Source: Brachyhypopomus gauderio (taxonomy: Eukaryota; Chordata; Actinopteri; Gymnotiformes; Hypopomidae). From it: 64,000 bases of DNA. A model generated the notes under the pieces. That model had not been told where the DNA came from, did not search any database, and was given only the letters and a program-made list of their open reading frames with translations. A program made the translations under genes and the position numbers. Positions 21,082-24,000 of this stretch are shown here, in pieces. The number at the start of each line of letters is the position of its first letter. Position 1 is the first letter of the stretch. The stretch covers positions 420,890-484,889 of the forward strand of contig NW_027506890.1 of the NCBI RefSeq assembly GCF_052324685.1. Direction: 5' to 3'.

Positions 21082-24000
21082 ATGGTAAGTTTCTTCCCCT
21101 GTCAATTATGATATACATAAGCTACACTTTATTGATTTTCAGGAAAGGCGCCAAAATTGCTCGATTTTTCTTTCTAAGGCCTAAGTTGTCCAAAGGTTTT
21201 TCGTTTTGTTGTTATTATTTTTTTGGGTGGGGGGTAGCTATTATTGTAAAACACTTTGCAACAGTTTTAACATCCTGCATACTATTGTGAACTTTTGTTT
21301 GTTTGAATGTTTCGTGGAAATTACTTTTTAGGCTAATTGCTCATCTCTATTAATATTAGCGGTGCGATGCTGGTTGTCTTTCGGTTTAAATGTTTACTAT
21401 GTAACAACGAGACGTGATATAAGTGCAAGTAATGTTGCAGTCCAAGAATGTGCGGAATCTGGTGAAGAGGCCCCGTTAGTTTGGAGAGCGGGTAAGGAGA
21501 GGAAGGGGGGATGGGGGAAGGGAGATGGGATTTGCGGCTACAGAAACGGGAGTCGTGCCCAAACCTACAGCCTTTTTGTCCTATGTCGAGTTTGAACCTG
21601 GTCGAGTTTGTCGTTTTCCTGTATGTAGTTTTAAAGGTCTACTTTGTAACCAACCCTTTGTCAAAACTGTCATCTCATTTTTATTAAAAATGCTAAAATT
21701 ACTCGATTACGTCTGTACCGAAACAAAGGCATGACACAACTTGAGGATTTGTGAAGCCTCCGTTGGTGGCAAGTTGAGACTTTACGCATTAGTCCAGGTT
21801 TACATTTAAGGGACTATCTTAAGGCTGCATTTTAACTTCTGGGGTTTTACTTTCCTATGATATGTGCAACATAATTTTGAGCGAGCATTAATACTAATTA
21901 AGAAATGCTTGAATCTCCTCATTGTGTTTGAAGAAGGAGAACAAGGAAGAAAAGGAGTCCTCACACGAGTTGTGACGTGACACACCACTCCCATTTGTCC
22001 TTCATTTTATCTGCTTCGTTTCTTTATCTAAATTCGTGCTGTTAAACTTATTTCTTACTATTCCAGAGCCAACTCTTAAAATGACTTGTCTGTACAGAAG
22101 GGCCTCTACTTACTGTACCGACAGTAACATTTTCTTTGGTGATCTTGGCTGACATACCTCTGTCCTTTTGTTACATATTTGTCAGTTCCGTGCTCGTGTT
22201 CCATTTAATGAAGACCTGATGTTTCCGTTGGGGTGTTGTCTGGTGTGCCATAGTTCAGTCGTCCTGTACAGGTGTTGCCTGTACTCAATTTTATGACTGA
22301 ACTATGGCTCTTGTTTCAAGTCCAACTGCGTGACTTGAGGCTGCATTTGTCAGTCTGGTTTAAAATAACAGTGGATGTGAGCTACACATGGTATTGTTCC
22401 CAGAATACCACATTTGGAGCATTTCTGTTATGTAATTGCTGTATAAGGTGAAGGTTGTGGTTAGTATCGGGGGGGATTTTTGCACACCAACAAGTTTTCT
22501 GAATTTCTCAATCACCCATAGGTTTTGTTTGTTTGGTCCAGTATGCTTGTGGCTAGTATTGAGCGTGGTACAAAAGAAGGCGAGGCCCCTCTGTTGTCAG
22601 ACTGAAAGATCTTGTTCATTAAGCCAAATATAGACAAAACTCCTACACTGCATTTTACAACAGTTGGTACACATTTTATGTGTAATAACTGACATTTTCA
22701 TAAATAATAATATATAATGTAACATTTACACACTTTAAAACTGAAAAATCCAGGTATTTGATCCAAATTCAGCAAAAAAATGTACAATATGGTCTATCTT
22801 TCAGTTTAGGAAGCAAACCCTTTTAATTTTGTTCACCAGTGTAATTGGGAAGTAGGTACTTGGAATCCATAGGATTGTTGTGATTGCTATTGTTATTGGC
22901 CTACAGCGAGAGTGCATCTCAATCCATATCGGCCAAGCTGGCGTTCAGACTGGCAATGCATGCTGGGAACTCTTCTGTCTGGAACATGGAGTGGGACCTG
23001 ACGGTGTAATGCAGGAAGTGATCTCCCTGCCGAACTCCCGTCAGGACCCCTTCAACACCTTCTTCAACACTGGCAGCTCTGGCCGCCATGTGCCTAGGGC
23101 AGTGTTCGTGGACCTGGAACCCACGGTGGTGGGTAAGCAGTCAGTTTAACCCTCTGTTTTCCTTCTCTTCCCTTGCATCCTTGGTGTGCGCATCGCAGCG
23201 TGAATGCATCTCCATCCACGTGGGCCAGGCTGGTGTGCAGATCGGCAATGCATGCTGGGAATTGTACTGCCTGGAGCATGGCATTCAACCCGATGGCAAT
23301 ATGCCTAGTGACAAGACCATTGGTGGTGGGGATGACTCCTTTAACACTTTCTTCAGTGAGACTGGCTCTGGAAAGCATGTACCAAGAGCAGTATTTGTGG
23401 ATCTAGAGCCAGCAGTCATTGGTAAGTGGGCATGAGTGGGTGCAGGTGAAATTTTAGCATTTTTTCTTCCTTTCTTTCCTTTAGTCATCGTTCTTACAAC
23501 GATGTGAGCTTGGCCAGCGTGGTGTGACTGAAAATGGGGGCCTATGTTTGATTATACTTGGATCTCCAATTGAGGCTTTAATTGGAGTTAGTTTGATTAC
23601 CTCCTATTTAATTGAAATGAAAAATATTATTTGAATGCATGATTTGATGAATCACAATAAAAATGCTTAATTTGTATCTGAAAATGAATGAATTGTGATT
23701 ACATTTGTACCCGTGTGGTGTGGCAGACGAGGTCAGGACGGGCACATACAGGCAACTTTTCCACCCAGAACAGCTGATCTCTGGAAAGGAGGATGCAGCT
23801 AATAACTATGCCCGTGGCCATTATACTGTTGGCAAGGAAATTATTGACATGGTCCTAGAACGTGTCCGCAAACTGGTAAGAATAGGGGAAAACCTCTTCG
23901 ATATTCTTGACATTTCTTAGATGTAGTTCACATGTTGGATATTAAAAGATGTTTAGCATTGATGACTTTTTGTGTGTATTCTAACATTAGACTGACCAGT

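Follow-up and report, generated by a model that had tools for sequence, protein, structure and literature searches.

An alpha-tubulin gene of Brachyhypopomus gauderio with two homologous, probably mutually exclusive second exons, one of which lacks K40

Introduction

Steric exclusion as a basis for the mutually exclusive use of neighboring exons was reportedly described by Smith and Nadal-Ginard in 1989 for alpha-tropomyosin, in which the branch point is located too near the upstream donor. The choice between these alpha-tropomyosin exons is regulated by tissue, as is known experimentally. A further pair of this type consists of exons 4a and 4b of OGDH. According to the part of PMC7969005 that was available to us, human branch points 25–41 nt from the 5' splice site enforce the exclusivity of the OGDH exons, the dominant branch point of a fish, the ocean sunfish, lies at 46 nt, and the steric threshold between 5' splice site and branch point is near 50 nt. 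In the accessible part of PMC5740500, potential steric interference (<50 bp) is reported for 57 (9%) of the human clusters of mutually exclusive exons (MXE).

Here we describe an alpha-tubulin gene that contains two versions of its second exon, termed 2a and 2b, in a 64,000-nt stretch of DNA of B. gauderio that was analyzed as a whole and is called the window in the following. The diversity of alpha-tubulins is commonly attributed to the existence of separate genes and to protein modification. To our knowledge, a single exon 2 is usual in the alpha-tubulin genes of vertebrates. This also applies to TUBA1A, TUBA1B and TUBA1C, for which we know of no splice form that lacks K40. The tubulin pair would be like that of alpha-tropomyosin in its steric exclusion, and the gene family differs.

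Several features are common to the tubulin pair and OGDH exons 4a and 4b, as far as the latter are described in the available text of PMC7969005: an ancient exon duplication with a short intervening intron, a distant branch point (predicted in the case of tubulin) followed by an AG-exclusion zone and a long pyrimidine tract, and a regulatory motif in one of the two exons but not in the other. The OGDH case differs in that the gene is unrelated, that the intron measures 118–131 nt in birds and mammals and that its branch points have been mapped. The tubulin intron comprises 66 nt, and its predicted branch point at +17 is closer to the donor than the OGDH branch points given in the same excerpt (PMC7969005). 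Regarding the protein, residue K40 is not required for membership in the alpha-tubulins, since human TUBA8, likewise an alpha-tubulin, lacks K40, as stated in the accessible portion of PMC12838686.

Results

The window contains a complete alpha-tubulin gene on the forward strand with a coding extent of 21082–25129. It is flanked by a BTB-domain gene on one side (domain hits in the ORFs 11535–11981 and 12308–12691; named klhl12 in the first-pass annotation) and by a JmjN-domain gene on the other (ORF 27822–28268; named kdm5b there). A TATA-like element at 20916–20920 (+) may mark the tubulin promoter, and CCAAT matches are found upstream of it at 20746, 20835 and 20874; all of these are sequence matches only. 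The coding part of exon 1 consists of the ATG alone (21082–21084), followed by gtaagt. Intron 1 extends over 1822 nt up to exon 2a (22907–23132, 226 nt), which is separated by an intron of 66 nt (23133–23198) from exon 2b (23199–23421, 223 nt), the standard alpha-1-type second exon. Exons 3 (23727–23875, 149 nt) and 4 (23991–24671, 681 nt) are common to both isoforms, and exon 5 (24836–25129, 294 nt) contains the stop codon after the C-terminus EEEGEEY. All introns of the gene have GT-AG ends. The product of ATG-2b-3-4-5, isoform B, shows homology to alpha-tubulin over its full length: its top match is the alpha-tubulin chain 1z2b_A (1010.7 bits, whole chain), and the best 60 of its 66 matches are all named alpha-tubulin or tubulin. 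Exon 2a alone also has an alpha-tubulin as its top match (1e-30; best 60 of 172 matches).

The first-pass annotation had read 2a and 2b as diverged tandem copies of one exon, and our analysis bears this out. The two exons can be aligned codon by codon with 50/74 residues in common and a single in-frame codon indel of exactly 3 nt. At the DNA level, the first 83 nt are 80.7% identical (E 2.5e-17). Chance similarity and an assembly duplicate are both ruled out by the codon-aligned identity of 64% together with the excess of differences at third positions. As had also been proposed, both exons are open at the coordinates given above, start in phase 0, end in phase 1, retain the GTP-site motifs GQAGVQ and VFVDLEP and have consensus splice borders (ctacag/gtaagc for 2a, tcgcag/gtaagt for 2b). 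The reading frame from the ATG exon into exon 3 is preserved with either of them and is shifted when both are included. ATG-2a-3-4-5 encodes isoform A with 450 amino acids and isoform B comprises 449, each with a single terminal stop. With both second exons included, translation would end at codon 78; with both skipped, it would end at codon 18. The pair is adjacent and homologous, with similar lengths and equal phases, as expected of homologous mutually exclusive exons; each isoform is in frame, and double inclusion and skipping are both out of frame.

In the 74-codon alignment, 2a and 2b differ at 79 nucleotides, of which 19, 14 and 46 fall on codon positions 1, 2 and 3. The ratio pN/pS is 0.31 (bootstrap 0.20–0.45), with a pN of 0.24 and a pS of 0.76. 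The synonymous sites are saturated, so that overall dS has no finite estimate. Nonsynonymous change is distributed unevenly: pN is 0.09 for aligned codons 1–29, 0.46 for codons 30–50, which correspond to the loop, and 0.21 for the remainder. For the first 29 codons, dN is 0.09 versus a dS of 1.76. We simulated the neutral evolution of 2b to the observed 2a-2b DNA divergence in 20,000 replicates. Only 13.8% of these stayed open, residue identity reached at most 39/74, and 0/20,000 attained the observed identity with an open frame. Given the codon-position pattern, the pN/pS ratio and the lack of any matching neutral replicate, the comparison shows that long purifying selection has kept the coding sequence of exon 2a since the duplication. 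Exon 2b is identical to the PDB alpha-1B chain 8cla_A in 71/74 residues, and isoform B is nearly identical to canonical alpha-1 tubulin (TUBA1A/B/C). Exon 2a matches the same chain in only 50/74 residues, which places most of the amino acid change on the 2a side.

Exon 2 presumably encodes residues 2 to about 76, that is, the first strand, the GQAG nucleotide loop, helix H1 and the H1-S2 loop with K40, as well as the lateral-contact loop, strand S2 and the DLEP motif. GQAG and DLEP are GTP-site motifs; both are present in both isoforms, as is the N-terminal MREC. In addition to GQAGVQ, exon 2a has kept RECIS, GNACWEL, CLEHG, FNTFF and a further segment of 12 residues. Its changes cluster in two places, the luminal loop and the lateral-contact loop: in the former, an unrelated segment that is one residue longer takes the place of the one around SDKTIGGG, and SETGSGK of the lateral-contact loop in 2b is replaced by NTGSSGR. 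Moreover, 2a has Thr in place of I16 of alpha-tubulin. Exon 2b carries K40 and K60, whereas 2a contains no lysine at all and has Ile as residue 40. The K40 acetylation site, a common but not a defining feature of alpha-tubulins, is hence present in 2b and absent in 2a. The main consequence for the protein, namely that 2a has lost K40 together with every other lysine, was not mentioned in the first-pass annotation. Judged from sequence, K40 acetylation would be impossible in isoform A, whose fold is probably preserved.

Splice sites were scored with consensus matrices and ranked over about 21000–25200, a region with 287 GT and 248 AG sites. Among the 287 potential donors, those of exons 4, 1, 3, 2b and 2a rank 1, 2, 4, 5 and 6. 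The donor of 2a, as the last of these, is the weakest of the five good donors of the gene; the scores are 10.2 for exon 1, 8.8 for 2b and 7.6 for 2a. Among the 248 potential acceptors, exon 5 ranks 15, 2a 25, exon 4 49, 2b 72 and exon 3 94, and the acceptor of 2a thus outscores those of 2b, exon 3 and exon 4. The pyrimidine content preceding 2a is poor (57% over the 37 nt upstream of its CAG). Overall, exon 2a appears to have good splice signals. We also found the hexamer TGCATG, presumably an RBFOX-type motif, at 22957 in 2a and at 23249 in 2b in matching codons, and again at 23636 in intron 2. The exonic copies are located within six identical codons, whereas synonymous sites elsewhere are saturated, and could possibly represent a conserved exonic splicing element. 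Overall, TGCATG occurs 4 times in 4.1 kb, against an expectation of 1.9 derived from the window, and this rate does not clearly exceed chance.

In the 66-nt intron, all candidate branch sites lie near the 2a donor. TTAAC is the sole yUnAy match in this intron as well as in the 120 nt upstream of 2b. The adenine of this match at 23149 is the predicted branch point for exon 2b. It is 17 nt away from the 2a donor, directly next to A16, and leaves 50 nt to exon 2b. The next adenine follows at +45 in poor context, and all adenines of the intron are at most 45 nt from the 2a donor, save those 7 and 2 nt before 2b. No AG occurs between TTAAC and the acceptor AG of this intron. The predicted branch adenine is followed by a pyrimidine tract of 32 nt (23150–23181, 91% C/T) with a TTCTCT element at 23163. 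Both the predicted branch site (+17) and the adenine at +45 are below the steric limit of about 50 nt to the 2a donor. For the predicted branch point, the intron would have the geometry of exclusive splicing through a distant branch point. Intron length by itself does not forbid the joining of 2a to 2b: according to the available part of PMC4463651, human introns of 66–85 nt are ordinary short introns, and splicing also occurs at lengths of 43, 49 and 56 nt. The case instead depends on the predicted position of the branch site. Together with the short intron, a branch site at this position would provide a physical reason for exclusivity, which the first-pass annotation did not offer. Its reading of the exons as mutually exclusive is strengthened by the exon structure, the frame logic, the borders, the selection on 2a and the predicted +17 branch site, and a transcript probably uses only one of 2a and 2b. 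The reading frame is a second barrier against double inclusion.

Discussion

Our analysis makes it quite likely that we are dealing with a single alpha-tubulin gene whose two homologous second exons are mutually exclusive and would constitute a switch between an acetylatable and a non-acetylatable subunit. Some features weigh against this reading: the donor of 2a scores lowest among the five of the gene, the pyrimidine tract ahead of this exon is poor, and 2a has Thr at the position of I16. In the mechanism that we propose, an old tandem duplication of exon 2 would have yielded 2a and 2b, of which 2b would have retained the ancestral alpha-1 sequence and 2a would have diverged under constraint. 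U2AF and U2 would commit to 2b via the distant branch point (about +17) and the long pyrimidine tract, which are set against the 2a donor, with the consequence that U1 could not act at the 2a donor at the same time as U2 at the branch point of 2b. The joining of 2a to 2b would then not be readily possible, so that each transcript would carry either ATG-2a-3 or ATG-2b-3, and any double inclusion that leaks through would be frameshifted and end at codon 78. Isoform B would be a normal alpha-tubulin that can be acetylated at K40. Isoform A, provided that 2a is expressed, would keep the GTP-site motifs but differ in two loops: the H1-S2 (K40) loop, which faces the lumen, would be replaced, and the loop at the lateral contact would be altered. 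If putative regulators act on the exon choice, its functional effect could be to set the fraction of subunits that are non-acetylatable at K40 and have altered lateral contacts.

The more specific proposal, namely that a sterically enforced splice switch swaps the luminal K40 loop and the lateral-contact loop and thereby supplies either acetylatable or acetylation-proof subunits from one promoter and with one C-terminal tail, has in our view an even chance of being correct. Such a mechanism is of a known kind; what stands out is alpha-tubulin as the gene and the K40 loop as the target. If true, it would add a layer of splicing to the tubulin code and a very compact example to the sterically enforced exon pairs. 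It would also amount to a natural experiment on K40 acetylation and the luminal loop, because exon 2 is the only difference between the two forms, with promoter, remaining body and C-terminal tail unchanged.

Other explanations have to be weighed against this reading. Exon 2a could be a recent relic, either a former exon of this gene or what is left of an upstream tandem copy that was otherwise deleted, and too young to have decayed. At 0.05 neutral substitutions per site, an exon like 2a remains intact (open and with its splice dinucleotides) in 60% of simulations, or in 18% with assumed indels, and a recently silenced 2a would look no different. However, at 0.10 substitutions per site this chance is 37%, or 4% with assumed indels, and the divergence between 2a and 2b is far greater, as the dS of the first 29 codons and the overall saturation indicate. 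The good splice signals at both ends of 2a also speak against a relic, as does the fact that remnants of a second tubulin gene were not found in the window, and we regard this origin as unlikely.

Alternatively, 2a could serve as a poison or regulatory cassette, whose inclusion together with 2b would produce a nonsense-decayed mRNA and tune the tubulin level. The stop at codon 78 precedes the later junctions as this would demand, and with 66 nt the intron is among the shortest of the ordinary short class, below which human introns of 43–56 nt are still spliced (available part of PMC4463651). Yet a cassette of this kind would not need conservation of the protein, whereas 2a is conserved with a pN/pS of 0.31, and the predicted +17 branch site disfavors 2a-2b joining; we consider such a role most improbable. 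Finally, 2a might belong to a separate transcript with its own start exon and promoter, in which case promoter choice rather than splice competition would decide between the two exons. Intron 1 is long, and a scan of it gave two candidate phase-0 ATG exons at 22219–22242 and 22293–22376. Their donor scores of 6.0 and 6.7 are below those of all real donors, with 10.2 for the common ATG exon, and they would place 8 or 28 residues ahead of Arg2 with loss of the MREC start. The common ATG exon, by contrast, fits 2a in phase 0, which leaves a separate promoter very unlikely.

Regarding the origin of the two exons, local exon duplication is the simplest explanation. A collapsed tandem gene pair is also possible and would leave the identical present structure. 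The saturation of the synonymous sites indicates an old duplication, but its apparent age could be inflated if 2b had undergone gene conversion by another tubulin gene. We found no further tubulin exons in the window, where all other tblastn hits have E values of 0.65 or worse, which rules out that 2a is an exon of an intact neighboring tubulin gene there. A derivation of 2a from a TUBA8-like gene is not favored, since 2a shares 48/74 residues with TUBA8 versus 50/74 with 2b and alpha-1, which is a small margin. TUBA8 further differs from 2a in being a separate gene with an unlike loop, and Ile7 and Asn51 of 2a are common to alpha-1 and 2b but not to TUBA8. Phe24 of 2a, on the other hand, is presumably present in TUBA8. 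Viral contigs were searched for 2a as well and gave 16 pattern matches with 0 relatives among them.

Among the listed matches from the open-licence literature, none described an alpha-tubulin gene with mutually exclusive exons. As evidence of absence this is weak because most subscription journals and genome annotation are outside the scope of that literature, and genome annotation databases may already list both isoforms. The main text of PMC5740500 contains neither 'tubulin' nor 'tuba', and 'exon' does not occur in the available part of PMC10921936 on zebrafish tuba8l2. The alternatively spliced tubulin that appeared in the accessible portions of the literature is delta-tubulin, TUBD1.

Several observations were made elsewhere in the window. 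Downstream of the JmjN-domain (kdm5b-like) ORF, a minisatellite with a unit of 33 nt occupies 39907–40509, and its translation repeats an 11-residue sequence many times. The region 51138–55490 (+) is, as we assume, a probable leiomodin gene: the ORF 51138–51737 contains a tropomodulin domain (E 1e-14), and an open frame of 664 amino acids at 53496–55490 (+) includes a proline run and a KE-rich region and has no Pfam match. On the reverse strand, visual inspection shows an open frame of 500 amino acids (59066–60568) to be rich in Ser, Glu and Pro; it has no Pfam match at E 0.001. The ORF 60917–61624 (-), also without a Pfam match, contains a DDDDEDD stretch and adjoins a GIMAP/AIG1- and septin-like GTPase ORF at 61614–62297 (-), which matches AIG1 with an E value of 2e-9 and Septin with 1e-8.
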